From Saccharopolyspora thermophila (lineage in GTDB: Bacteria; Actinomycetota; Actinomycetes; Mycobacteriales; Pseudonocardiaceae): DNA of 64,000 nt. A program made the position numbers and the translations under genes. Under the pieces are notes generated by a model. That model was given only the letters and a program-made list of their open reading frames with translations, had not been told where the DNA came from and ran no database searches. The stretch is from NCBI RefSeq assembly GCF_014646075.1, contig NZ_BMMT01000007.1, positions 62,001-126,000 on the forward strand. Direction: 5' to 3'. Positions 5,666 to 60,697 of the stretch are shown piece after piece (the stretch's first letter is position 1; each line of letters opens with the position of its first letter).

Positions 5666-6895
5666 TTGCCCGTGTCAACCGATCCTGCTGCAGCGGACTT
5701 CCCGACCTCCCGGGTGCGCACCCGAGCGGAGGCCGAGGCATACGTCGCGTCGGTGTGCTTCAAGCACGGCCCTCCGGAACTCGCCGGCGTCGAGCTGGAA
5801 TGGACCGTGCACCACGCCGACGATCCAGGCCGACCGCTCGACGCCGCGGCGCTGATCGCCGCCCTCGGCCCGCACGCCCCCCGCTCCCTGGTCCCGGACA
5901 GCCCGCACCGCCGGTTGCCCAACGGCTCGGTGCTCACCGTCGAACCCGGCGGCCAGGTCGAGGTCTCCAGCCTCCCCACCCCCTCCATGCGGTCGCTGTT
6001 CAGCGTCGTCGAAGCCGACGCCGCGTACGTCGCGCGCCGCCTGCGCACCGCCGGTCTGGTGCTCGGCGACCAGGGCACCGACCCACTGCGGTTCCCCCGG
6101 CGCATCCTGCAGGTCCCCCGCTACGCCGCGATGGAGACCGCGTTCGACCGCATCGGCCTGGACGGCCGGCTGATGATGTGCAGCACCGCCGGCGTGCAGG
6201 TGTGTCTCGACGCGGGCGAGGCGCACCGCGTGGCCGCGCGGTGGAACGCGCTGCACGCGCTGGGGCCGGTGATGCTGGCGACGTTCGCGAATTCGCCGAT
6301 GCTGTTCGGCGAGTGCACCGGCTGGGTGTCCACCCGCACCCGCGCGCTGCTGCGCACGGACCCGCCGCGCACCCGGCCGGGCCCGGTCACCGAGGACCCG
6401 CCCCGGAGCTGGGCCAGGCGGGTGCTGGACACCTCGCTGGTGTGCCTGCGCCGGGACAACGGCGACTGGACGGCTCCCACGGGCATCAGCTTCGCCGAGT
6501 GGATCCACGGCGCGTTGCCCAACCCGCCCACCCGTGACGATCTCGACTACCACCTGAGCACGGTGTTCCCGCCGGTGCGGCCGCGCGGCTACCTGGAGGT
6601 GCGCTACCTGGACGCGCAGCCGGGCACGGACTGGATGCTGCCCGCCGGGGCGCTGATCGCGCTGTTCCGCGATGAATCCACTGTGGACGAGGTGCTGGAG
6701 CTGACCGTACCCGCGCGGGGGCGCTGGGTGCAGGCGGCGCGGCACGGGCTGCTCGACCGGGCGCTGGCGCGCTGCGCCCGCGACGTGTTCGAGCTGGCGT
6801 GCCGCCGACTGGAGCAACCCGACAGCCCCGCGGAGCTGCCCGGTCGGCTGGCCGACCACGTCGCCCGGCGGCTCGCCGCGGTCGGCGACCGGTGA
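5666..6895 (+). CDS. egtA: Glutamate-cysteine ligase EgtA (ergothioneine biosynthesis)
   Basis: A 409-aa gamma-glutamylcysteine synthetase of the actinobacterial EgtA type. It makes gamma-Glu-Cys, the sulfur donor that EgtB joins to hercynine. Visible family features include GVELEWTVHHADDPGRP near the N-terminus (the ExEW-type nucleotide/Glu-binding motif), LPNGSVLTVEPGGQVEVSS, and YLEVRYLDAQPGTDW near the C-terminus. It is the first gene of egtABCD. The start is ambiguous: a strong Shine-Dalgarno (GGCGGTGATC, 5651-5660) sits 9 nt before TTG 5666, while GTG 5672 is 15 nt away, so TTG is preferred. egtB follows after 19 nt. Confidence 0.9.
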   Translation: MPVSTDPAAADFPTSRVRTRAEAEAYVASVCFKHGPPELAGVELEWTVHHADDPGRPLDAAALIAALGPHAPRSLVPDSPHRRLPNGSVLTVEPGGQVEVSSLPTPSMRSLFSVVEADAAYVARRLRTAGLVLGDQGTDPLRFPRRILQVPRYAAMETAFDRIGLDGRLMMCSTAGVQVCLDAGEAHRVAARWNALHALGPVMLATFANSPMLFGECTGWVSTRTRALLRTDPPRTRPGPVTEDPPRSWARRVLDTSLVCLRRDNGDWTAPTGISFAEWIHGALPNPPTRDDLDYHLSTVFPPVRPRGYLEVRYLDAQPGTDWMLPAGALIALFRDESTVDEVLELTVPARGRWVQAARHGLLDRALARCARDVFELACRRLEQPDSPAELPGRLADHVARRLAAVGDR

Positions 6896-6914
6896 ACCAG
6901 GCGAAAGGGGAGCG

Positions 6915-8255
6915 ATGGAGAGCACGCAGCAGCTGGCGAACCTGGGAATCGAGGACCTGCGGGCCCACGTGGCCGCCGAACTGGCCCGCACCCGGCGCCG
7001 CAGTACCCAGCTGACCGACGCGGTGGACGACGACGACCTCATCCGGCAGCACTCGCCGCTGATGTCGCCGCTGGTGTGGGACCTGGCGCACATCGGTAGC
7101 CAGGAGGAGCTGTGGCTGGTCCGCGATGTCGGCGGCGCGCCGGCGATCCGCCCGGACATCGACGACCTCTACGACGCCTTCCAGCACCCGCGCGCCGACC
7201 GGCCGCAGCTGCCGCTGCTGGGACCGGCCGAGGCCCGCGACTACGTCGACACGGTGCGGGACAAGGTCTTCGACCTACTCGACCGGGTTCCGCTGGAAGG
7301 CCGTCGGCTGGTGGCGCAGGCGTTCGCCTTCGGCATGATCGTGCAGCACGAGCAGCAGCACGACGAGACGATGCTGGCCACCCACCAGCTGCGCAAGGGA
7401 CCGCCCGCGCTGACCGCCGAGTCACCGCCCCCGCCGCCGTCGGAGGTGCTGCCGCCGGAGGTTCACGTGCCCGGCGGGCCGTTCGTGATGGGCACCTCCA
7501 CCGAGCCGTGGGCGCTGGACAACGAGCGCCCCGCGCACGAGGTGCACGTGCCCGGGTTCTTCATCGACACCACCCCGGTCACCAACGGCCAGTTTCTGGC
7601 GTTCATTGACGCCGGGGGCTACGACGACCCGCGGTGGTGGAGTGAGGTGGGCTGGGCGCACCGGCAGCGCGCCGACCTGCGCGCCCCGCTGTTCTGGCGG
7701 CGCGACGGGGACCGCTGGCTGCGCCGCCGCTTCGGCCACGTCGAACCGGTGCCGCCGCACGAACCCGTGGTCCACGTCAGCTTCTACGAGGCCGAAGCCT
7801 ACGCGGCGTGGGCCGGCAGGCGGTTGCCCACCGAGCAGGAGTGGGAGAAGGCCGCGCGGTTCGACCCGGGCAATGGGCGCTCCCGTCGCTACCCCTGGGG
7901 CGACGCCGACCCGACCCCCGAGCACGCCAACCTCGGCCAGCGGCACCTGCAGCCGGCGCCCGCGGGGAGCTACCCGGCTGGGGCCGCGCCGTGCGGCGCG
8001 CGGCAGCTCATCGGTGACGTGTGGGAGTGGACCGCCTCGGACTTCCGGCCGTACCCGGGGTTCTCGGCGTTTCCGTACCGAGAGTACTCCGAGGTGTTCT
8101 TCGGTCCCGACTACAAGGTGCTGCGCGGCGGCTCGTTCGGCACCGACCGGGCCGCCTGCCGCGGCACGTTCCGCAACTGGGACTTCCCGATCCGCAGGCA
8201 GATCTTTGCCGGGTTCCGCTGCGCGCGGACCGCGCGGGACGAGGAGGGCGACTGA
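6915..8255 (+). CDS. egtB: Hercynylcysteine S-oxide synthase EgtB (non-haem iron)
   Basis: A 446-aa iron(II)-dependent sulfoxide synthase. It couples hercynine to gamma-Glu-Cys with O2. The N-terminal DinB-like domain holds the three-His iron site: His59 in LVWDLAHIGSQEE, and His145 and His149 in the HX3HXE motif IVQHEQQHDE. The C-terminal half is a formylglycine-generating-enzyme-like (sulfatase-modifying) domain with PGGPFVMGT, RLPTEQEWEKAAR, GDVWEWTASDF and VLRGGSF. The length is normal for the family. An AAAGGGGAG Shine-Dalgarno precedes the ATG. It lies inside egtABCD, 3 nt before egtC. Confidence 0.96.
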   Translation: MESTQQLANLGIEDLRAHVAAELARTRRRSTQLTDAVDDDDLIRQHSPLMSPLVWDLAHIGSQEELWLVRDVGGAPAIRPDIDDLYDAFQHPRADRPQLPLLGPAEARDYVDTVRDKVFDLLDRVPLEGRRLVAQAFAFGMIVQHEQQHDETMLATHQLRKGPPALTAESPPPPPSEVLPPEVHVPGGPFVMGTSTEPWALDNERPAHEVHVPGFFIDTTPVTNGQFLAFIDAGGYDDPRWWSEVGWAHRQRADLRAPLFWRRDGDRWLRRRFGHVEPVPPHEPVVHVSFYEAEAYAAWAGRRLPTEQEWEKAARFDPGNGRSRRYPWGDADPTPEHANLGQRHLQPAPAGSYPAGAAPCGARQLIGDVWEWTASDFRPYPGFSAFPYREYSEVFFGPDYKVLRGGSFGTDRAACRGTFRNWDFPIRRQIFAGFRCARTARDEEGD

Positions 8256-10975: not shown

Positions 10976-11696
10976 TCAGAACAGACTGCGGGCGATGAGG
11001 AGCACCGCGCCGCCGCCGGACAGCGCGAGCACGCACGGGCGCATCCACCTGGTGTCCAGATACCGGCGCAGCGGTCCGGAGAGCGCGAAACCGGCAGCCA
11101 TGAACGGCGCCAGCACCGCGCTGCCGAGTACCTGGGGCCACCCGATCTGCCCGCCAGCGGCCAGCGCCACCAGCGACAGCACCCCGCCGAAGGTGAGGTA
11201 GGCGGCCAGTGTCGCCCGGATCCGCGGACCGGTTTCGTGCTGGTACAGCAGGGCGACCGGGGGACCGCCGATCGACGAGGCGGTACCCAGCACCCCGCCG
11301 GCGAATCCGGCGACCACCAGCGCCGGTGCTGTCGGGCGCGGTCGCCACGACACCAGCGACGCCAGCAGGCACAGCAGGACGAAACCGCCCACCGCGGCGC
11401 CGAACGCGTCCCGCGGCAGCAACGCCACGGCCAGCGCGCCCAACGCGGTGCCGGGAGTGCGCCCGATGATGCTGAAACCCGTGCCGCGCCAGTTGACGTG
11501 GCCGAACTCCCCGCCGCATCGCCAGCACCGACAGGACCAGGGACGCCACCAGCAACGGTACCGGCACCAGGCGGGGATCCAGCAGCGCCAGCAGTGGGGC
11601 TGCCAGCAGGTTCATTCCCAGACCGGCGCTGCCCTGCACGATCGCGCCGAGCAGCACCACCGCACCGGCGATGCCCAGCACCACAAGCGGCGACAT
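10976..11696 (-). pseudogene. TauE/SafE-family sulfite/sulfonate exporter, frameshifted
   Basis: The two halves of a TauE/SafE membrane protein lie in different frames. The N-terminal half starts at ATG 11696 (MSPLVVLGIAG, first two membrane helices) and reads to about 11513. The rest, from GHVNWRGTGF through ALGALAVALLP to the stop at 10976, continues in another frame. Removing one base from the run of four C at 11509-11512 restores a continuous protein of about 239 aa with MRREFGHVNWRGTGF at the join, a family motif. The total length is 3n+1, consistent with one inserted base. It is either a real disruption or a homopolymer sequencing error. The intact protein would export small organosulfur or sulfite anions. 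Confidence 0.8.
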
Positions 11697-11953
11697 CGAC
11701 GCTTCTTCTTTCCGGTAGCGCGGTAGGCGAGGCCGGCCGCGCACCCGGCAGCCACTGGGGGGAGGTGCTGCCGGGGCGCGACCAGCGGGGCCCAGGCTAC
11801 ACCCGCCAGGCGCCACGCTCCCGCGGGCGGGGGTGTCTTCCACTGAGCTGAAACCCCGTCAGCATCAGCGAAATCACCTCGTCAGCCCCGCGACATCCCG
11901 TCCCGGTGCCTCGGTGGCGCCTCCCTGACGAGCCGCCCACCATGGCCCAAACC

Positions 11954-12019
11954 TCCCAAGTTCAGGGAAATTCGGGAGCCTGGCGGGGTCCGGAGTTCCC
12001 AAGTGCAGGGAAATTCGGG
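11954..12019. repeat. Pair of 23-bp near-identical direct repeats
   Basis: Two copies (11954-11976 and 11997-12019) of a 23-bp unit with core CAGGGAAATTCGGG differ at one base and are 43 bp apart. They lie in the 397-nt gap 11697-12093 between the TauE/SafE gene start and the PucR gene end, which otherwise holds no convincing gene. They could be paired binding sites or part of a dispersed intergenic repeat. Confidence 0.7.
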
Positions 12020-12093
12020 GGTGGTTGGTGCGATCGGTAGCGGGTGTCGCGCCGGATCTGCGCGGGTTCGTTCGGTGCACCGTGGCCGGAGCG

Positions 12094-13713
12094 TCACGTT
12101 CGGCTGCGGGTGTCCCACGCCAGAAGCGCGACGTGCAACGACAACAGCGACTCCGGGCTGTCCAGCGACACCCCCAGCAACTGCTCGATGCGCGACAGCT
12201 GGGCGTAGTACGCGGTACGCGACAGGTGAGCCGATGCCGCCGCGGCGGACTTGTTGCCGCCGTGCCGGCAGAGTGACCGCAGGGCGTCCAGCAGCCGCTC
12301 GTGGGCCAGCAGCGGGCCGAGTTCCCGTTCCGCGAAGGCGATCACCCGTTCGTCCCCGCGCAGCAGGTGCAGCAGGCCGCGCAGCCGCACGTCATCGAGC
12401 CGGTGGAACTCGCGGCTGCCGTCGTCGACGTGCAGCGCCGCCTCCGCGACCTGCGCGGCCTCGGTCAACGTCCGCCGCGCCCCGCTGACCGACGCGGCCG
12501 AGCTGCCCACCGCGATCACCACCGGCAGCGAGTGCGCCTCCGCCGACCGCCGCACCTCGGCGGCCAGCCGGGACAGCACCGCGTCGCTGTCGGCGGGCAC
12601 CGCCACCAAAGCCTGGACGGTGACGTCGTCGATCACCCCGGCCAGCACCGGCAGCTTCGCCCGGCGCGCGGCCAGCGCCGTCGCCTCGGCCAGATCGCGC
12701 AGCACCTGCTGGGTTTCCAGCGCGGGCGCGACCGTCGTGGTGGTGCGCGGGCGCACCGCGATGCCCACCAGTGGCCCGGTCAGCGGTACGCCCAGCCCCG
12801 CGGCGCGAGCCGCGAGATCGGCGGGGTCGGCACCGCCCGCGAGCAGCTCGGTCAACAGCGTCCGGTGCGTCTGCCGCTCCAGGCTCTCCCGGTCCCGGGT
12901 CACCAGCCGGTTCACCGCCAGCGCCGACGCCGCCCGCTCGGCCACCACGACGTGGCGGTGCGTCGGCTGCGGGGTCAGCACCACCAGCCGCCCCCAGTCG
13001 TCGCCGCGCGCCCCCACCACCGTGCTCAGCCACTGCTGGTCGGGCTCGTAGCAGGTGCGCCCGGTCTGCACCACCGACCGGGAGCGCTCCGACCAGTCCG
13101 ACAGCAGCGCCACCGGATCCTGCCCCGCGGCGTCGTAGGCGAGCACCTGGTGTGCCAGCGCCTCCAGCACCACCGGGCACTCCACCAGCCGCGCCGCCTC
13201 CCGCAGCACCGCGGCGGGCTCCGCGCCGGAGGTGGTCAACGCGGTGAACGTCTCGTGGATCGCATGCGTGGCGCGCAGTTCCTCGAGCTGTGCGTCCCGG
13301 ATGCGCGCGGCGACCGCTTCGGTCACCGCGACGAACCTCGTCTCCTCCGATAGCGTCACCAGCGGCAGGTCGTGCCGGTGCGCGGCGTCCACCAGCGCCG
13401 TCGGGACCCGGTCCCGCCACCGGCGCACCAGCTCCACCACCAGCCCGGCCGCGCCGACCCCGGCCAGCCCGTCGACGTAGCGCGCCAGCTCGGCGGGTTC
13501 CTCGGGCAGCGCGATGCCGGTGGTCAGCACCAGCTCCCCGCCGCTGAGCAGCGGCGCGATGTCGGCGAGCTCGGTCACATGCACCCAGCGCACCTGCCTG
13601 TCCAGCCCGCGGGCCCCGGCGACCACGCGCGGTTTGCCGCGCCGCAACACGGGCAGGTTGAGCACCTCGGACACGGTGGGCAGCGCCAGCACGTCCGGCG
13701 GGATCGGGTTCAT
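12094..13713 (-). CDS. PucR-family transcriptional regulator
   Basis: A 539-aa regulator. The N-terminal PucR ligand-type domain (TVSEVLNLPVLRRGKPRVVAG through LSGGELVLTTG, residues about 10-125) is followed by a GGDEF-like CdaR middle region and a C-terminal PucR helix-turn-helix (LLDALRSLCRHGGNKSAAAASAHLSRTAYYAQLSRIEQLLG). Start at ATG 13713 behind AGGAGGG; upstream in-frame codons lack a ribosome site. It is divergent from the aminotransferase/semialdehyde dehydrogenase operon, so it is the obvious candidate regulator of that catabolic pair. PucR relatives activate purine, GABA or beta-alanine breakdown genes in response to pathway metabolites. Confidence 0.9.
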   Translation of the reverse strand: MNPIPPDVLALPTVSEVLNLPVLRRGKPRVVAGARGLDRQVRWVHVTELADIAPLLSGGELVLTTGIALPEEPAELARYVDGLAGVGAAGLVVELVRRWRDRVPTALVDAAHRHDLPLVTLSEETRFVAVTEAVAARIRDAQLEELRATHAIHETFTALTTSGAEPAAVLREAARLVECPVVLEALAHQVLAYDAAGQDPVALLSDWSERSRSVVQTGRTCYEPDQQWLSTVVGARGDDWGRLVVLTPQPTHRHVVVAERAASALAVNRLVTRDRESLERQTHRTLLTELLAGGADPADLAARAAGLGVPLTGPLVGIAVRPRTTTTVAPALETQQVLRDLAEATALAARRAKLPVLAGVIDDVTVQALVAVPADSDAVLSRLAAEVRRSAEAHSLPVVIAVGSSAASVSGARRTLTEAAQVAEAALHVDDGSREFHRLDDVRLRGLLHLLRGDERVIAFAERELGPLLAHERLLDALRSLCRHGGNKSAAAASAHLSRTAYYAQLSRIEQLLGVSLDSPESLLSLHVALLAWDTRSRT

Positions 13714-51478: not shown

Positions 51479-52285
51479 TCAGCGGGGCAGGGCGCCGGCC
51501 CGGGGGTTCGGCGAGACCGCCAGGTCCGCGCCGATGCGGGCTGCCGTCTCCAGCAGCGGCGGCAGCAGCCTGGTCCGCGCGTCTTCGACGCTGGTGCGGC
51601 TGGCGTGTGAGGAGATGTTCACCGCCGCGACGACCCGGTCCGACCGGTCCCGGATCGGTGCCGCGATCGACCGCAGGCCCGCCTCCAGCTCCTGGTCCAC
51701 CAGCGCCCAGCCCTGCTCACGTACCCGCGCCAGCTCCCGCTTCAGCTCCGCCGGGGTGGTGATGGTGTGCGGGCCCAGGGGTTGCAGCTCCACCTGGGCG
51801 AGGTGCTCATCCAGGTGCTCGTCCGGCAGGTCGGCGAGGATCACCCGGCCCATCGAGGTGGCGTAGGCCGGGAACCGGGTGCCGATGTTGATCGACACCG
51901 TCATGATCCGCGAGGTCGGCACGCGGGCCACGTACACGATGTCGGTCCCGTCGAGCACCGACACCGACGCTGACTCGTGCACCTCGGCCACCAGCCGCTC
52001 CAGGTACGGCTGGGCGATCTCCGGCAGCGAGATGCTGGACAGGTACGCAAAGCCCAGCTCCAGCACCCGCGGGGTGAGCGCGAAGACCCGGCCGTCGGTC
52101 CACACGTACCCCAGGTGAACCAGGGTGTGCAGGAACCGGCGGGCGGCCGCGCGCGACATGTCCGTCGCGCGGGCCACCTCCGACAGCGTCATCTCCGGGT
52201 TGGACTCGTTGAACGCGCGGATCACCAGCAGCCCGCGCGCCAGCGACTGGACGTACCCGCCGCTCGTCTCGGACACGGGCTCCAT
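51479..52285 (-). CDS. IclR-family regulator (PcaR/PobR type)
   Basis: A 268-aa regulator. The N-terminal winged helix (SLARGLLVIRAFNESNPEMTLSEVARATDMSRAAARRFLHTLVHLGYV) is followed by the IclR effector domain (VSINIGTRFPAYATSMGRVILADLP, LEAGLRSIAAPIRDRSDRVVAAVNISSH). The SLxRGLxVIRAF start is typical of the protocatechuate-pathway regulators PcaR/PcaU. Start at ATG 52285 behind CAGGAG. It follows the pca genes on the same strand and probably controls them, possibly through the GAAC repeats upstream of pcaI. Confidence 0.9.
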   Translation of the reverse strand: MEPVSETSGGYVQSLARGLLVIRAFNESNPEMTLSEVARATDMSRAAARRFLHTLVHLGYVWTDGRVFALTPRVLELGFAYLSSISLPEIAQPYLERLVAEVHESASVSVLDGTDIVYVARVPTSRIMTVSINIGTRFPAYATSMGRVILADLPDEHLDEHLAQVELQPLGPHTITTPAELKRELARVREQGWALVDQELEAGLRSIAAPIRDRSDRVVAAVNISSHASRTSVEDARTRLLPPLLETAARIGADLAVSPNPRAGALPR

Positions 52286-52298
52286 GGTCAGCTCCTGG

Positions 52299-52397
52299 TC
52301 AGTCGGTCCGCTCTTCGTCGAGGATCGTATGGGCGATCGCGACGGCACTGTTCGTGCGGGGTATCCCGGCGTCGATCGCGACGTGCACCGCGGGCAT
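52299..52397 (-). pseudogene. Residual C-terminus of 4-carboxymuconolactone decarboxylase
   Basis: A 32-residue frame (MPAVHVAIDAGIPRTNSAVAIAHTILDEERTD) overlaps the pcaD stop. It parallels the end of PcaC/CMD proteins (xTAxYAGVPAANxAFAxAQRVLxE). The catalytic part is absent. Actinomycetes often encode PcaD and PcaC as one fused protein (PcaL), so this is most simply the tail of a pcaL or pcaDC unit after an internal deletion. Confidence 0.65.
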
Positions 52398-53182
52398 CAC
52401 AGGCTCCTCGTGAAGTGGTCCAGCAGCAGCCGGTTGACGGCCTCGGGCTGCTCGACGTTGGCCAGGTGCGCGGCCGGGGACAGTACCTCCACGCGGGCCC
52501 CGGGCACGGTCGCGGCGATGCGCTCGGCGTGCGCAGGCGGCGTGGCCGGGTCCTCGGCCCCGGCGATGAGCAGGGTCGGCGCGGTGATCTCGGAGAGCTT
52601 CGGCAGCAGGTCCATGGTGGCGATGGCCTCGCAGCACGCCGCGTAGCCCTCGTCGTCGACGGTGGCGAGCATGCCGCCGAACTTCGCCACGATGTCCGGC
52701 CGCCCGGCCAGTTCGGGGGTGAACCACCTCGGCAGCGACATGTCGACCATCGCCTTCGTGCCCTGTTCGCGCACGGCCGCGGCGCGGTCCCGCCACCTCG
52801 AGGCGGGTCCCAGGTCGGCGGAGGTGCAGATCAACGCCAGCCGGTCGATGCGTTCGGGGGCGTGCTCGGCCAGCCACATGCCGGTCATGCCGCCCAGCGA
52901 GACCCCGGCGAAGTGCACCCGGTCGATGCCGAGCCGGTCGAGCAGCGCCAGCACGTCTCCGCTGAGCTGCTGGAGGGTGTAGGGGCCCGGCTTGGCCGGG
53001 GTGGCGCCGTGGCCACGCTGGTCGTAGCGCAGCACCCGAAACTCCCGCGCCAGCGCGGGCATCTGCGCGTCCCACAGGGTCAGGTCGGTGCCCACCGAGT
53101 TGGACAGCACCACGACCGGGGCGTCGTCCGGCCCGGTCAGCTCGTAGTTGACGTTCACCGGGTCTCCAGTTGACGTTTTCAC
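52397..53182 (-). CDS. pcaD: 3-oxoadipate enol-lactonase
   Basis: A 261-aa alpha/beta hydrolase. Nucleophile Ser in VHFAGVSLGGMTG (about residue 95), an acidic residue in LLIAGAEDPATPP and the catalytic His in SPAAHLANVEQP. It hydrolyses beta-ketoadipate enol-lactone to beta-ketoadipate. The first GTG (53182) overlaps the pcaJ stop; a second in-frame GTG (53158) has the same GGAGA ribosome site, because the junction is tandemly duplicated. The length fits the PcaD half of actinobacterial PcaL. Confidence 0.9.
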   Translation of the reverse strand: MKTSTGDPVNVNYELTGPDDAPVVVLSNSVGTDLTLWDAQMPALAREFRVLRYDQRGHGATPAKPGPYTLQQLSGDVLALLDRLGIDRVHFAGVSLGGMTGMWLAEHAPERIDRLALICTSADLGPASRWRDRAAAVREQGTKAMVDMSLPRWFTPELAGRPDIVAKFGGMLATVDDEGYAACCEAIATMDLLPKLSEITAPTLLIAGAEDPATPPAHAERIAATVPGARVEVLSPAAHLANVEQPEAVNRLLLDHFTRSL

Positions 53183-53192
53183 CGGGTCTCCA
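53147..53192. repeat. Tandem duplication at the pcaJ/pcaD junction
   Basis: Adjacent copies of 22 bp (53147-53168) and 24 bp (53169-53192) are identical except for two extra T in the second (plus-strand view; shared ending CACCGGGTCTCCA). Each copy carries a GGAGA ribosome site or a GTG used at the pcaJ/pcaD boundary. Confidence 0.9.
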
Positions 53193-53928
53193 TCAGTTCG
53201 TGCAGCACGGTCAGCTCGGTCTCGGTCGGCTCCGGTTGCACGGTCGGCTCGGGCACGACCTTCAGCGGCCAGCCCACCGCCTCCTGCGCCTGCTCCACCG
53301 TGACACCGGGGCTGAGCTGGGTGAGGGTCAGTTCGCAGCTCTGCGGGTCCGGCTCCAGCACGCCCAGGTCGGTGATCACCTTAACCGGGCCGCGGCCGCG
53401 CAGGCCGAGCCTTTCCCGGTCCCCCCTGCCGCCGCCGTAGCCGACGGAGGTCACGAAGTCGAGCCTGTCGACGAAGTTCCGGGTGCTCATGCGCATCACG
53501 ATGAGCACCTCGCGGCAGGACGCGGCGATCTCCGGGGCGCCTCCGGCACCGGGCAGCCGCACCTCGGGGTTGGCGTAGTCGCCGATGACCGTGGTGTTGA
53601 TATTGCCGAAGCGGTCCACCTGCGCGCCGCCGAGGAACCCGATGTCGATGCGGCCGGGCTGTAACCAGTAGTTGAAGATCTCCGGGACGCTGACCACCGA
53701 GTCGGCGGTGTCGGCCAGCACGCCGTCGCCGATGGACAGCGGCAGCCGGTCGGGCTTGGCGCCCAGCGTGCCGGACTCGTAGATCAGCACCAGGTTTGGG
53801 GCGTGGGTGCGGCGGGCGAGGTTTGCCGCCGTGCTGGGCAGCCCGATGCCGACGAAGCACGCCGCTCCGTCGCGCAGGGACCGGGCGGCGGCGACGGTCA
53901 TCATCTCGTCGGCGGTGAACTCGCTCAT
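53179..53928 (-). CDS. pcaJ: 3-oxoadipate CoA-transferase subunit B
   Basis: A 249-aa CoA-transferase beta subunit. GACCFVGIGLPSTAANLARR and VLIYESGTLG, whose Glu is the expected CoA-ester-forming residue, are followed by FLGGAQVDRFGNINTT and PGAGGAPEIAASCREVLIVM. With PcaI it activates beta-ketoadipate with succinyl-CoA. The ATG at 53928 overlaps the pcaI stop, and its own stop overlaps pcaD, so pcaIJD are coupled. Confidence 0.9.
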   Translation of the reverse strand: MSEFTADEMMTVAAARSLRDGAACFVGIGLPSTAANLARRTHAPNLVLIYESGTLGAKPDRLPLSIGDGVLADTADSVVSVPEIFNYWLQPGRIDIGFLGGAQVDRFGNINTTVIGDYANPEVRLPGAGGAPEIAASCREVLIVMRMSTRNFVDRLDFVTSVGYGGGRGDRERLGLRGRGPVKVITDLGVLEPDPQSCELTLTQLSPGVTVEQAQEAVGWPLKVVPEPTVQPEPTETELTVLHELMETR

Positions 53929-54746
53929 CGCGCACTCCTCGCGGTGCCGTGCACCTCGGCTTCCAGCCACTTCTCGAACTGCTCGCGGTCCCGGCCGATC
54001 GGGTCCCACTGCTGGTAGTAGGCGTTGTCGCGCTCGTAGTAGCCCTGCGCGTACGACGGCCTCGCCCCGCCGGGAACCTCGGCGACGGCGGTGACGACCC
54101 AGTTCGGCAGCACCACGGAGTGGGGCCGCGGGGTCAGCTCGTCGACGATCTCCTCGACGGTGACCAGCGACCGGGTGGAGGCGAGCACGGTTTCCTTCTG
54201 GACCCCGGTGATACCCCACATCTGCACGTTGCCCGCCCGGTCGGCCTGCTGCGCGTGGATGATGCCGACGTCGGGGTTGATCGCCGGGACCGCGGCCAGC
54301 TCCTCCCCGGTGAACGGGCACTCGATCATCCTGATGGTGCTGGTGTGCTGGGGCAGGTCGGTGCCGGCGTAGCCGCGGAGCACGGCGAACGGCAGCCCGG
54401 CGGCGCCGGCGGCGTAGCGGTTGGCCATCCCGGCGTGGCTGTGCTCCTCGATCTCCAGCGGCACGGGCCAGGAGTTCTCGATGGCGTCGCGGAACCGGTG
54501 CAGCGACCCGACACCGGGGTTGCCGCCCCAGGAGAAGATCAGCTTGCGCGCGCAGCCGGCGCCAATCAGCTGGTCGTAGACGATGTCGGGTGTCATCCGG
54601 ACCAGGGTCAGGTCCTTCTTCCGCTGCCGGATGATCTCGTGCCCGGCGGCGACCGGGATCAGGTGGGTGAAGCCCTCCAGGGCCACCACGTCCCCGTCGT
54701 GGACCAGCTCCGCGATCGCCTCATCGAGCTGCAGGATGCGTGCCAC
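53925..54746 (-). CDS. pcaI: 3-oxoadipate CoA-transferase subunit A
   Basis: A 273-aa CoA-transferase alpha subunit. DGDVVALEGFTHLIPVAAGHEIIRQRKKDLTLVRMTPD, FSWGGNPGVGSLHRFRDAIE and IAPFTGEEL-like CPFTGEELAAVPAINPDVGIIHAQQADRAGNVQMWG are characteristic. GTG 54746 is chosen; TTG 54755 is closer to the GAGGAG Shine-Dalgarno and is a real alternative. First gene of pcaIJD. A close relative could serve another 3-oxoacid, so the assignment rests partly on the PcaD neighbour. Confidence 0.88.
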   Translation of the reverse strand: MARILQLDEAIAELVHDGDVVALEGFTHLIPVAAGHEIIRQRKKDLTLVRMTPDIVYDQLIGAGCARKLIFSWGGNPGVGSLHRFRDAIENSWPVPLEIEEHSHAGMANRYAAGAAGLPFAVLRGYAGTDLPQHTSTIRMIECPFTGEELAAVPAINPDVGIIHAQQADRAGNVQMWGITGVQKETVLASTRSLVTVEEIVDELTPRPHSVVLPNWVVTAVAEVPGGARPSYAQGYYERDNAYYQQWDPIGRDREQFEKWLEAEVHGTARSAR

Positions 54747-54768
54747 CCCGACCAACTCCGCTCCTCGT

Positions 54769-54813
54769 CGAACATTGCTGTGCGCATAGAGAACACATGT
54801 GCTTTCTGCGAAC
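54769..54813. promoter_or_regulatory. Triple GAAC repeat, candidate IclR operator
   Basis: GAAC occurs at 54770, 54791 and 54810, spacing 21 and 19 nt (about two helical turns), with CGAAC in the outer copies, 25-65 nt upstream of pcaI. IclR regulators of the PcaU/PobR group bind three GTTCG-type repeats in such an array. A CACATGTG palindrome lies inside. Confidence 0.5.
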
Positions 54814-54896
54814 GATAGGCGAGCGCGCGGGCAGCGGTCAAGGAATCGGCTGCCGCGGGACCTGGAGCGCGGTGTGAGTGGATCCCAGCGATCTTC

Positions 54897-55945: not shown

Positions 55946-56731
55946 TCAGCTGGCAGCAGGCTCGTCGTCGGCGCTTGCAATGGAGCCCCCGTACCTCGTC
56001 CGCAGTCGGTCGGCGAGGTCGCTCCGGCCATAGGTGCCGAACGCATTCAGCAGTGTCTCCAGCAACCACATCCTCTCGGCCTTGTCGGCGTCATCCAGGA
56101 ACTCATCGACCAGACGTCCGGCCGAGTCCGACTGCTCAGGTTCCAGCGTGGTGCGCAGCAACTGGAAATCCTGCGCAACCTTCACCAGTTGATCCGGTTT
56201 GTCCAGGTTGTCGGCGAACCACCACGCTGTCGCCCGAAGCGGATCGGTGATCAGCGAACCAAGCCACCGGACCTCGTCCTCCCGCTGCTCGCGCTGCCAG
56301 GACAGGACCGTTCGGCGGCGAATCGTCTCCTCCCTGGCCGCCACCCCGGCGATCAGCTCCGGGTCGGCTTCGACGGACACGCAGTGCGCCCGAGCGTGGA
56401 CACCTGTCATGGCAACCGGTTCCCAATGCAGCAGAGCGATGTTCAGCTCAGCGCGCAGCCGCTCGCATTCGGTCAGCGCGCGGAGCTTGCTGACCTCCTC
56501 GGCCCGGCGCGCGACGCCTCTAACCGCGATGTCCCCCGCGGTCAGCGGTGCGGGACCCGTGCCAGTCCATGTGAACTCGACGGACAGCTTCACGTCGAAG
56601 TACAGGGCCGGGTCGCTGCTGCGGAGCAGCAGCGGATGGTCGCTGCGCGCTGAACGTGACGGATCTGCTGATGCTCCGGACCCACTGGCCATCAGCTTTC
56701 GCAGTTGCCGCGCGGACCGGCGGTAACGCAC
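55946..56731 (-). CDS. Module protein of unknown function
   Basis: A 261-aa protein from GTG 56731 (AGGGGGA upstream; ATG 56782 lacks a ribosome site). An Arg-rich N-terminus (VRYRRSARQLRKL) leads to DHPLLLRSSDPALYFDVKLSVEFTW, suggesting a beta-rich domain. Then come helices with conserved-looking GVHARAHCVSVEADPELIAGVAARE and WLGSLITDPLRATAWWFADNLDKPDQL. The VEADPE segment and the charged helix after it recall SPFH/band-7-like proteins only loosely. I cannot name the family. It starts 41 nt after the 708-aa gene and is the last gene of the four-gene module. Confidence 0.7.
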   Translation of the reverse strand: MRYRRSARQLRKLMASGSGASADPSRSARSDHPLLLRSSDPALYFDVKLSVEFTWTGTGPAPLTAGDIAVRGVARRAEEVSKLRALTECERLRAELNIALLHWEPVAMTGVHARAHCVSVEADPELIAGVAAREETIRRRTVLSWQREQREDEVRWLGSLITDPLRATAWWFADNLDKPDQLVKVAQDFQLLRTTLEPEQSDSAGRLVDEFLDDADKAERMWLLETLLNAFGTYGRSDLADRLRTRYGGSIASADDEPAAS

Positions 56732-56772
56732 GTGCCGTCCCCCTCTCCCAGTGCGGGCGTCCGGTGCACCTT

Positions 56773-58899
56773 CTACCGCCATACCGGATGGACTTCATCC
56801 AGCCGCGTCCGGAGGTGCCGGACGCTGTCGGCCACTCGCTTGTCGCCGAGCGAGGTGAAGTCGGGCAGTGTGCCGAAACTGCTGGCGTACTGGAGCTGGG
56901 CGATCCGGCGGGCATCTCCCCTGGTGGCCGCCACCAGTGGCTCCACCAATGCGCCTCGTTCCTCGGGCTCGAGGTTGGCGGCTGTGCGCAGCCAGCTTTC
57001 CGCGACCGGCCGCAGGTCGTCCGGGGCCATGCTGCCGAGGGCGCGGTCCCAGAAGGCCACTGCGGCATCGCTGTCGATGTCCGACGTCCGCTCGGCGAGC
57101 ACGGATGCCACGCTCTCGCTCAGGATTTTCAGGCGTGCGGGCGAGGCGTCGTCAAACCACTCCGCCATGTAGCGCAGGAACGTCGAGACACCAAGTTCGC
57201 CACCGATCTGCAGCACCGCGGCCAGCACCGCGCGACGAACCGTTTCGCTCTCCGAGGTCGCCAGGTGCTTGAGCCTGGTGAGTGCGATGCGGGGGAACAC
57301 CTGCCCGATCCCGGCGCAGACCTCGGCGGTCAGCAGTTTCCGGTCCGCGTTGCCGTCTCTTGACCACTCCCAGAGCTTCTGGCGGACAGACCTGCCCAGT
57401 GATGCATCCAGCGCGGTTGTGGTCAACAGGCGCACCGCGATCGACCTGCGGTAACGGTTCTTCCAGTGGTCGGAGGTCTCGGCTCCGTCCGACCGGTCTG
57501 CTGCCGCGGTCCTGGCCCATTCGTCCGCGAGCGACACCGCGATGTCGGCGCCGCCTTCGGCCGCCAGTTCAGCAACTCGGTCGGCGACTCGCTCCAGTTC
57601 CTTGCGGTTCAGGTCCTCGATCTGCCGCGGTAGATCCCTGATCCACTCCAGGAGAGTGTCGTGGACATCGGGGTGTTCCCGCCAGAAGTGCCGAAGAACC
57701 TGGGTTCCGAGTCCCGGAGGCTTCAGTTCGCACGTCTCCAGGTCGAAGTAGTCGTCGCCGAGGTGGTGCAACCGGGTGAACGGGCTCGGGCGCAGGAGCG
57801 GGATGACCTGTTCCCGCGCGACGTTGCTGTGCTCCAGCATCGTGTCCGCCGCGACCGCGATGTGCTTGGCCGAGGCGCCTTCCAACAAGCCTGCGGCGAG
57901 CAGCAGCGCGAGCCACTCGGTGTCTTCGGCCTGCTGTTTCCTCGTGATCTCGGCTCGAAGGGTGGTGGTCGGGTCCTTGGACTCGGTCTCCAGCACCGCG
58001 CGGAGAGCCTCGTCGGGATCTGTGCCCCGGTTGATCCGGTCGGACACAGCTTCCGCGAGATCCTTCACCTTCGGCGGCCACAGTCGCTCCACGCATTGCG
58101 CAACGCCCGACTTCTCGACCAGCTCGTGCGCGTTCTCCACACCCGTCAAGTGTCGGACGAACACGTCAACGGACGATGGCTTCGCCAGTCGGTGCACGCG
58201 TCCCGGGAAGGACTCCCCGAAGGCGGGCGCCAGGTTGTGCGGAATGATCAGGATCAGGTAGCTCCGGTACTGCTCGAGCTGGTCGGTGAATTCCACCAGA
58301 CCTCGCCGAACGTTCTGGATCTCGTCGCGCCCGGCACCGCGTAGGTCAACCAGGACGGCTGCCGGTTCGTGCGCGACCAACAGCGTTTTCGCCTGCAGCC
58401 GGAACCCGGTATCCGCCAGTTCCTCTCGGACGACGAGCTCGGGGTGCTTCTCCTGCAGTTCGTAACCGAGTCGGAGAGCGGCAGAGAACTGACCACAGGC
58501 GCTTCCTTCGCCGGCGATCAACAGGACCCTGCGGTCGTGGAGCACCTGGAACGCGCTGCCCCGCTGCTCCCCGAGGAGGCCAGGGGGTGTCACGTACCTG
58601 GACGCCAGCCGTTCGAGCGCCTCCCGGTCCTGCAGGCCGCGGCCGTTGTGCTCACGGTCGTGTGCCCGTGCCAAGGCATCGGCGGCATCCTTGCCGACGA
58701 TGAGCTGGAGGAGGTTGGTCACGGACTGGTCGATGTTCCCATACGTCGTGACATTGCCATCGCCGTTCACCGACATCGCAGGCGGCTGTGTCGGCACCTC
58801 GTCGAGACCGGTGCTCTGCGGGGGTTCGAACCGGGCACCGACGGGCTCGGGGCTGTCCAGCATGCCGAAGGCATCCACGTCGTAGCTCACGGCGCTCAC
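56773..58899 (-). CDS. STAND-like protein with degenerate P-loop and N-terminal amyloid-like motif
   Basis: 708 aa. Residues 1-40 are disordered. Residues 43-59 (SVNGDGNVTTYGNIDQS) resemble the Gly/Asn-rich tail of the cyclase-like neighbour. An NTPase-like core follows: RRVLLIAGEGSACGQFSAAL (about 123-142) sits where Walker A belongs but lacks the GK[ST] lysine, and AAVLVDLRGAG (about 180) mimics Walker B. Conserved-looking helices (YLILIIPHNLAP, VDVFVRHLTG) and a long alpha-helical C-terminal half (about 250-700) with HEAT-like pairs complete it. The plan resembles actinobacterial NLR/STAND conflict proteins. Its GTG overlaps the cyclase stop (GTGA). Codon bias looks weaker than in neighbours, hinting at acquisition. 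Confidence 0.65.
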   Translation of the reverse strand: MSAVSYDVDAFGMLDSPEPVGARFEPPQSTGLDEVPTQPPAMSVNGDGNVTTYGNIDQSVTNLLQLIVGKDAADALARAHDREHNGRGLQDREALERLASRYVTPPGLLGEQRGSAFQVLHDRRVLLIAGEGSACGQFSAALRLGYELQEKHPELVVREELADTGFRLQAKTLLVAHEPAAVLVDLRGAGRDEIQNVRRGLVEFTDQLEQYRSYLILIIPHNLAPAFGESFPGRVHRLAKPSSVDVFVRHLTGVENAHELVEKSGVAQCVERLWPPKVKDLAEAVSDRINRGTDPDEALRAVLETESKDPTTTLRAEITRKQQAEDTEWLALLLAAGLLEGASAKHIAVAADTMLEHSNVAREQVIPLLRPSPFTRLHHLGDDYFDLETCELKPPGLGTQVLRHFWREHPDVHDTLLEWIRDLPRQIEDLNRKELERVADRVAELAAEGGADIAVSLADEWARTAAADRSDGAETSDHWKNRYRRSIAVRLLTTTALDASLGRSVRQKLWEWSRDGNADRKLLTAEVCAGIGQVFPRIALTRLKHLATSESETVRRAVLAAVLQIGGELGVSTFLRYMAEWFDDASPARLKILSESVASVLAERTSDIDSDAAVAFWDRALGSMAPDDLRPVAESWLRTAANLEPEERGALVEPLVAATRGDARRIAQLQYASSFGTLPDFTSLGDKRVADSVRHLRTRLDEVHPVWR

Positions 58900-59864
58900 C
58901 GTCCCACCGTGTCGTCAGTGTTGATGCGGCGACCGCTGGAAGGCCCGAAGTTGGCATCGCCATGCGTGTAGAAGTGCCCGGAGAACTCCTGCTTGTCCTT
59001 CGACTGGTCGATGCCGTGACCAGCGGTGGTGTTGCCGTTCCCCTTCACCACGATGCCGCGGTTCTGCGTCCCCTGGTTGATCCCGCCCGAGACATCGTGG
59101 GTCTGTGCGACGTTATCCGCTCTGCCGTGCACGTCGTTCGCGGTTCCGGCGATGGCCCGTTTTTCCGTTGTCGGTTCCGGATCTGGTTCCGGTTGTCCGA
59201 AGAGCAGACCCGAACTCAGCAGTTTTTGCGACGGTGCGGGCACGCGCAGGTACCCCACGCCTGAGTAGTCCTTGGCGTCGACCTGCAGCGGTGCTTCGAC
59301 GAACTCGCTGGGCTTCCGGGCGGTCCGGCCAGCACGCACGACGTGTTCCATCACCGCGTTCGAGATGACCGACGCCACGAACGTCACGTTCGGGTCGGAA
59401 TGGTCGAGCAGCGCCCGAACGGAGTCAGCGTCCACCATCCGCCCCGTGTCGACCATGACCTTCCCACTGGGTGAGTCGGTCAGGAGCGCGTCGAACGACT
59501 GCACGGGCCCGAGGTGAAGGCTGGTCCGCACGCGAAGCGTGATCTCGGCCGCTCGGAACTGCGCGGCCCGCTGGCGCATCGCACCTTGCAGGGCGTCGAA
59601 GAACCTGTCCACCACGGCGCTTACCAGGTCGACGTGGAAGCCGAAGAGGTAGCCGTCGCCACGCGGTGCGCGGAAATGCCCGTCCCACAGCTGCGGGAGA
59701 CCTGCGCGGCTCGCCGACTGCTGGATGATCTCCGGTAGCAGGTCGATGATCATCTTCTGCTGAGCGTCGTTGTGCCTGCCGAAGCAGTGCACGTCCACCG
59801 CGAGGATGCCGCGGTACTCGCCCAGTGCGCGGGTGCTGTCGGGGAGTTCGAGTTCGTGGTCCAC
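58896..59864 (-). CDS. Class III nucleotidyl cyclase-like protein with Gly/Asn-rich tail
   Basis: 322 aa from GTG 59864, with GGAGGCG 6 nt upstream. Residues 18-180 have the class III cyclase plan: Asp24 in ILAVDVHCFGR (first metal ligand), GDG at 69-71 in APRGDGYLFGF (second metal ligand Asp70), LRVRTSLHLGPV (110-121) and GRMVDADSVRALL. Both metal aspartates are present, so activity is possible; the base-specifying residues cannot be judged by eye. Residues 240-322 are low-complexity (GGINQGTQNRGIVVKGNGN..., HGDANFG) and include a motif shared with the next protein. The gene overlaps the 708-aa gene by 4 nt and follows the Crp gene by 58 nt. It may make a cyclic nucleotide for Crp or for an effector. 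Confidence 0.75.
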   Translation of the reverse strand: MDHELELPDSTRALGEYRGILAVDVHCFGRHNDAQQKMIIDLLPEIIQQSASRAGLPQLWDGHFRAPRGDGYLFGFHVDLVSAVVDRFFDALQGAMRQRAAQFRAAEITLRVRTSLHLGPVQSFDALLTDSPSGKVMVDTGRMVDADSVRALLDHSDPNVTFVASVISNAVMEHVVRAGRTARKPSEFVEAPLQVDAKDYSGVGYLRVPAPSQKLLSSGLLFGQPEPDPEPTTEKRAIAGTANDVHGRADNVAQTHDVSGGINQGTQNRGIVVKGNGNTTAGHGIDQSKDKQEFSGHFYTHGDANFGPSSGRRINTDDTVGR

Positions 59865-59922
59865 CGATTCGCCTCCAGTGGTGTACGTGGATGACGGTGC
59901 CGAGGTTGCCCGGTGGTCACGA

Positions 59923-60624
59923 TCAGTTCTGTCCAGAAGTGGACACATCACCGCGGTGCATGTCGAGGAGTCCCGGGATGTCGAGGACGTGCAGCCTGGC
60001 GCGCGACACCTGGATCAGCCCAGCGGCCTTCCACTCGGCGAGGACCGGCGTGACCGCGGACCGCACCAGACCCAGCGCGGTCGCCAGTTCTTCCTGCGAC
60101 ATCGGAATCGTGGTCGGCGCAGGGTGGTCCGGACCGGCTGCCCCGATGAGGGCCACGAGGAGGTCCGCCAGCCGCGCCGCCGTGGTCCGGTGTGCCAGTC
60201 GCCACGCGTGCGGCGCGCTTTCCCGGACCTTGCCCAGCATGTAGCTGTTCAGCTGCGCCCTGATGCCGTGGCGGTCCACGACGTCGTCGAACCGCTGGTC
60301 GGAGAGTTTCGAGGTGACCCCCGGTTCGATCGCCTGCACGGTGGCCGACCTGGGTCGCCCGTCCTGCCCGGAGAATTCGCCGATCACGTCACCGGGGCCG
60401 CGCACGGCGAGCATCAGTTCGCGTCCCTCGGGTTCGGAGTAGATCACCTTCAGCCGCCCGGACACGCACAGCAGCACCCAACCACCGGGCTCGCCCTGGT
60501 GGAGCAGACGCTCACGGGCGTGGTGCTTCCTGACGATGCCGCTTTGAACCAGGGCCGCCCAAGCGGGGAAGGGGATGAGGGATCGGAAGCCGCGCGGTCG
60601 GCGGAATTCGTGTGCCTCGCTCAC
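59923..60624 (-). CDS. Crp/Fnr-family transcriptional regulator
   Basis: A 233-aa regulator with GTG start at 60624. The N-terminal cyclic-nucleotide-binding barrel includes GPGDVIGEFSGQDGRPRSATVQA, retaining the Glu and Arg-Ser-Ala-Thr of the phosphate-binding cassette, so cNMP binding is plausible. The C-terminal winged helix is IPMSQEELATALGLVRSAVTPVLAEWKAAGLIQV. It has no FNR-type Cys cluster. It is the first gene of the module and lies 58 nt before the cyclase-like gene, suggesting a local cyclic-nucleotide circuit. No Crp-type TGTGA...TCACA site is obvious upstream. Confidence 0.88.
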   Translation of the reverse strand: MSEAHEFRRPRGFRSLIPFPAWAALVQSGIVRKHHARERLLHQGEPGGWVLLCVSGRLKVIYSEPEGRELMLAVRGPGDVIGEFSGQDGRPRSATVQAIEPGVTSKLSDQRFDDVVDRHGIRAQLNSYMLGKVRESAPHAWRLAHRTTAARLADLLVALIGAAGPDHPAPTTIPMSQEELATALGLVRSAVTPVLAEWKAAGLIQVSRARLHVLDIPGLLDMHRGDVSTSGQN

Positions 60625-60697
60625 GTGTTCGTGTCTAGTCGGTGCCGTCCGAGTACGGGCGGGCGCCGAGCAAGATCACTCGAAGAGTCCGGTCTGG

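Follow-up and report, generated by a model that had tools for sequence, protein, structure and literature searches.

A four-gene operon and its inheritance

The window analysed here is a stretch of 64,000 nucleotides from Saccharopolyspora thermophila (contig NZ_BMMT01000007.1), and it harbors four consecutive genes, designated A to D, with a 58-nt gap between A and B, a 4-nt overlap between B and C, and a 41-nt gap between C and D; these genes, and the domains, motifs and promoter elements located below within or just upstream of them, lie on the minus strand. Gene A (window positions 59923..60624) encodes a Crp/Fnr-type regulator, gene B (58896..59864) a class III cyclase-like protein with a disordered, motif-bearing tail, gene C (56773..58899) a divergent nSTAND3-type protein with a helical C-terminal part, and gene D (55946..56731) a protein with a predicted SPFH/Band-7 fold. 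A sequence-only reading of the window had proposed this order and spacing, which are confirmed as gene calls and as a single conserved operon. Its Crp/Fnr regulator with a preserved cyclic-nucleotide cassette, its cyclase-like domain with both metal aspartates, and its 708-aa NTPase-like protein with a lysine-less P-loop likewise stand, and the 261-aa protein that it left unnamed now has a fold assigned from its predicted structure. The GC content at third codon positions is 0.79-0.84 in genes A-D; in eight genes counted on the flanks it is 0.89-0.95. We conclude that A-D is a real, conserved signalling operon, inherited as a set in soil bacteria.

Co-inheritance was examined in 249 Pseudonocardiaceae genomes, a sample drawn from a larger group, with genes in the fetched loci called by a GC-frame rule. 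B is matched in 120 of these genomes at E<=0.001, and close homologues (46-64% identity to B) occur in 24, S. thermophila included; close matches of C are found in the same 24 genomes. Across the 24 close B loci, window included, Crp is adjacent in 23, C in 24 and D in 22 (22, 23 and 21 at the 23 other loci, L032-L054), and the A-B-C-D order is kept. D is missing in L049 and L054, Crp is missing in L054, and D is split in two pieces in L040. Genome G068 has no close B but does contain a close D, whose match is interrupted by an internal stop. The pairwise divergences of the four genes correlate with one another (r 0.78-0.91, no species-tree control). The flanks are mostly unrelated, with close homologues only at L032 and L034 (same genus) and weak ones (26-28%) at L036 and L051. 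The independent shuffling in related genomes that the sequence-only reading had named as counter-evidence is thus not what was found.

Outside the family, all four genes occur in Actinopolymorpha (L084), where two D-like stretches (6032-6961 and 11360-12124) are located before Crp and after C, and a phylum sample of 396 genomes contained B relatives in four, S. thermophila included. Viral contigs yielded one pattern stretch and no relative of B, phage records no match, and plasmid records two partial matches (25.9% and 31.2% identity). Within the genus, the flanking NUDIX gene is present in 20 of 22 genomes and capA in 14, and the two are linked by position in 12, with the module between them in three, a gap of 0.2-1.1 kb in six and other genes in three. 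Four of the six short-gap sites and all three other-gene sites (L147-L149) were fetched and read, and no defence gene was recognised by eye among the other genes. Two further genus members (L037, L052) carry the module at a different site. To the left of the module in the window, positions 51479-54830 encode an IclR-type regulator, an alpha/beta hydrolase and both subunits of a CoA transferase, a set that by eye resembles a beta-ketoadipate pathway cluster.

Predicted folds and conserved residues

Gene A matches the Pfam domains cNMP_binding and HTH_Crp_2, both above cut-off, and its cyclic-nucleotide cassette is invariant in 23 homologues. It also matches the cNMP part of PycTIR models, but carries an HTH in place of the TIR domain. 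The fold model of B and its VIA matches indicate a class III cyclase fold (residues ~15-210, 59235..59822), in which the metal aspartates D24 and D70 are retained in 24/24 and 23/24 close homologues, respectively, and R142, a likely catalytic arginine, in 24/24. The general loss of catalytic residues that could have spoken against a cyclase is therefore not seen, and the site is conserved on the predicted fold. B scored nothing above cut-off in Pfam, NCBIfam or PADLOC, NCBIfam on all 24 homologues gave a single weak row (FapE, E 0.0089, 1/24), four distant homologues had no PADLOC match to PycC models at E<=0.1, and a profile search of solved structures returned no row.

In a manual alignment, the Asn position of B is occupied by V or I, which leaves its activity uncertain, and the usual base-pocket Lys position by Ala. 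Such substitutions would suit a non-catalytic cyclase fold that acts as a nucleotide binder or an oligomerisation adaptor, with the Crp protein answering cAMP from elsewhere; the genome encodes another class III cyclase, and the available text of Kaur et al. 2020 (PMC7159879) reports vWA components whose cNMP cyclase domains are catalytically inactive. We consider this explanation improbable, since D24, D70 and R142 are almost invariant and the sole copy with a changed D70 also lacks Crp and D, and we continue to read B as a cyclase. In that copy (L054) the second metal aspartate has become Glu, and the locus perhaps represents a decaying or repurposed system.

C itself matches no family above cut-off in Pfam, NCBIfam or PADLOC, and its profile search of solved structures gave one row, a designed protein at E 2. 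However, two of four homologues scanned exceed the nSTAND3 cut-off, all 17 members of a set of more distant C homologues (A6) match nSTAND3 at E<=0.01, and the A2 and A6 profiles align at E 2e-40 over 557 columns, so that C is a distant nSTAND3 relative, with homology traced through its relatives only. Its degenerate P-loop (residues 130-138, 58486..58512) has Gln in place of Lys; at this position Q is found in 23/24 and H in 1/24, while A6 has Arg in 17/17.

For D, the predicted model (pLDDT 89.8) is an SPFH/Band-7 fold: judged by their titles, the chains in VIA rows 1-34 belong to the SPFH family, except 2rpb, which is titled only as a membrane protein, and Foldseek returned 7vhq (E 1.4e-4, probability 1.00), with low whole-chain TM-scores. 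At the sequence level, no Band_7 match was found in 41 members, nothing exceeded cut-off in Pfam, NCBIfam or PADLOC, and profile searches of solved structures gave no row for D and ten weak rows, none of them SPFH, for a wider D set. Distant D homologues begin with a hydrophobic segment (by eye), which the window copy lacks. In L105 and L106 (~7200-8240), D-like genes are located beside a methyltransferase-like gene, far from cyclases, pointing to an SPFH-like family with other contexts as well. The available text of PMC13174449 deals with a TIR-like NADase and the vault and has no bearing on D.

The region upstream of A was aligned for 19 of the 23 Crp genes, omitting the near-duplicates L035, L040 and L049, and L053. 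Three features recur in most of these regions: a TTCGAGTGATCTTG-like block at about -60 to -47, columns rich in C around -35 and, close to the start codon, a hexamer resembling TANANA. In the window the block corresponds to the conserved element TCGAGTGATCTTG (60671..60683), a 13-mer whose pattern, TCGRGTGATCTTG, matches exactly once in the genome, at this locus, with 13 one-mismatch sites and none for the reversed control pattern. Two one-mismatch copies on contig C2 are located inside amino-acid biosynthesis genes (by eye) and look like chance occurrences. The element is asymmetric, and it is therefore not claimed as a Crp operator. The hexamer, a putative -10 element in conserved columns -13 to -8 (60632..60637), lies 7 nt upstream of the start codon of Crp, which suggests a possible leaderless transcript.

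Paired motifs, TIR relatives and the Pycsar effector

The disordered tail of B and the N-terminus of C share a Gly/Asn-rich motif. Residues 270-288 of B (59001..59057) match residues 43-59 of C (58723..58773) with a score of 47 against a shuffle mean of 27.5 (p 0.006), and the similarity exceeds shuffles in 27/27 operons (24 close and three distant, p<=0.03 each), with a mean score of 56; when other windows of C are used instead, the mean is 23 and the maximum 36. Pairs from one and the same operon average 56.4, versus 40.1 when permuted (p 1e-4). In L043, a 110-aa open reading frame located 64-396 nt downstream of the module, in the direction in which the module is read, has a tail similar to the motif of B and C (NEISGTVYGKVVQARDIHGDLSF) and perhaps encodes a further partner.

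Relatives of C are also found beside a different type of protein. Among 28 C-family loci examined, the gene before C is a TIR homologue in 20, a cyclase in four and neither in four; these loci were partly chosen for having no B nearby, so the mixture is not a rate. The upstream reading frame was picked mechanically and sometimes wrongly, and the motif test was therefore repeated on 14 TIR pairs, 12 of which show a significant tail/head match. One such pair is encoded by S. thermophila itself (L100, contig C12, 5975-8679), where a TIR protein (TIR_2 above cut-off) precedes a protein of nSTAND3 type and the two have a matched tail and head motif of their own. Mean motif scores are 42.3 for cyclase-cyclase and 38.7 for TIR-TIR comparisons, as against 27.9 and 27.8 for the cross pairs, indicating that C relatives are paired with TIR proteins through a different, class-specific motif; judged from these sequences, cyclase and TIR look like exchangeable outputs of one sensor family. 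The idea of amyloid motifs in the sequence-only reading thereby gains support from matched tail and head motifs, seen in all cyclase operons and most TIR pairs tested.

A further link is to PycTM (PF18967), the Pycsar membrane effector, which occurs at 81 sites in 70 of the 249 genomes. Among the 92 B sites considered, all with E values of 4.1e-22 or lower (weaker B rows omitted), 14 have PycTM within 2 kb, versus 0.09 expected; they comprise 3 of the 24 close and 11 of the 68 distant loci, one of them in S. thermophila, and all four B-linked PycTM proteins scanned by Pfam and PADLOC match PycTM. The single PycTM of S. thermophila (G000:C1:665242) is located away from the window locus. Contig C1 contains a second, divergent Crp-cyclase-STAND locus (L055, 6150-11583), where PycTM is encoded on the opposite strand and a D-like gene lies upstream. 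The Pycsar connection drawn by the sequence-only reading is therefore borne out beside homologous operons, but not at the window locus itself.

With PycTM, a D-like gene and a Crp-cyclase-STAND set adjoining in L055, the window locus could be regarded as a plain Pycsar system whose effector is supplied from there. We find this very improbable, although the class III-type cyclase with both metal aspartates is a shared feature: B has no PycC match, and Pycsar as described in the available text is a cyclase plus receptor (PMC11224242), to which this operon adds STAND, SPFH and Crp genes.

Since relatives carry a known anti-phage membrane effector, the operon probably serves as an alarm in immunity or stress; its most likely role is to signal infection or severe stress, and a defence role is likely. 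An unlikely alternative is a developmental or stress regulator without immunity, in which C and D would sense an internal state, B would make cAMP or cGMP, and Crp would adjust expression without death or defence. The dedicated Crp and a promoter element occurring exactly once in the genome fit such a regulator, as does a locus without PycTM or, by eye, any nearby defence island, for which the sequence-only reading had suggested a search. However, it accounts poorly for PycTM beside homologous operons, for relatives of the TIR and nSTAND3 families, which are used in antiphage systems, and for a site that is occupied in three and empty in six of the 12 linked genus genomes.

A proposed mechanism and its relation to known systems

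We favour, with slightly better than even confidence for the mechanism as a whole, a self-contained signalling operon in which a cyclase is gated by the STAND protein and scaffolded by the SPFH-fold protein, and a dedicated Crp reads the cyclase product. C would sense a trigger and assemble with B through the N-terminal motif of C and the C-terminal motif of B. Bringing B subunits together would activate the cyclase, as class III cyclase active sites form at a dimer interface, and the cyclic nucleotide would be bound by the adjacent Crp, altering transcription of the operon and perhaps of a few other genes. D would probably provide a cage or membrane scaffold. In some relatives, a Pycsar-type membrane effector, PycTM, would be added next to Crp, and in other members of the STAND family a TIR protein would replace the cyclase. 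What the analysis shows is the gene content and its co-inheritance, the predicted folds, the conservation of residues, the similarity of the motifs and the PycTM linkage; sensing, the order of activation, a cyclic product, its binding by Crp, a defence role and amyloid formation are inferred. A more specific version, less likely than not, is put forward tentatively: a lysine-less NLR-like sensor may activate the cyclase by motif templating (amyloid or beta-solenoid) on an SPFH cage, with the product acting on the dedicated Crp and, in some strains, also on a PycTM killer. Such a system would bridge Pycsar and the amyloid type of NLR signalosome, with TIR and cyclase as interchangeable outputs of one sensor family.

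Besides the altered Asn position of B, several observations weigh against this scheme. B has no PADLOC match to PycC models at E<=1, PycTM is absent within 6 kb at 78 of 92 B sites and at the window locus, and no classical Crp dyad above shuffles was found upstream of A. The preference of motifs for their own partner is confounded by relatedness; a tail scores best with its own head in 10/27 operons, and at least three foreign heads score higher in 11/27. In L042 the best tail/head alignment falls outside the motif, and the TIR pairs of L112 and L124 show no significant match. Overall, the sequence-only interpretation is partly supported: it is upheld for co-inheritance, the cyclase site and PycTM near relatives, but no defence island was recognised nearby by eye.

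Several described systems share parts of this design. BASS amyloid-type NLR pairs likewise consist of adjacent genes with a motif at the STAND N-terminus and the partner C-terminus, and the partners named are BELL, CHAT and TIR, described pairs ending in pore-like, protease or TIR proteins in the available text (PMC7889193); here, however, the partner is a cyclase and the STAND protein lacks the P-loop lysine, and the likeness is one of layout. nSTAND3 is the STAND domain of antiphage Avs5 (PMC12931631, available text), and C's relatives belong to the same subfamily (A6, 17/17); however, Avs5 depends on the lysine of its Walker A motif and carries Sir2 as a fused effector, whereas C is without the lysine and its putative partner is encoded by a separate gene. 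According to the accessible text of Kaur et al. (PMC7159879), MoxR-vWA systems include inactive STAND and Band-7 domains as well as cNMP cyclases, their adaptor domains are paired across neighbouring genes, and some related systems have CRP-like genes nearby, so the parts and the logic were already known. These iSTAND/VMAP conflict systems resemble the operon in the kinds of domain that occur there and in the pairing across neighbouring genes; the operon differs in its separate genes, a short motif rather than a folded adaptor, and a dedicated Crp. No MoxR-vWA pair was recognised by eye in the translated neighbours, for which no profile search was made; in L042 a MoxR-like protein is encoded ~3 kb upstream on the other strand (by eye). 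Searches of the open-access literature listed no paper whose title and abstract describe a Crp-cyclase-STAND-SPFH operon, and the papers listed by one of these searches do not mention SPFH. Separate genes combined in this way with a short motif appear to form a new variant.

A fold can now be assigned to D-like proteins, a group missed by the family libraries that were searched. If the proposed mechanism is true, an NLR-like sensor would be linked to both a second messenger and a transcription factor, one sensor family would have exchangeable outputs, and a switch for a Pycsar-like cyclase would be at hand.

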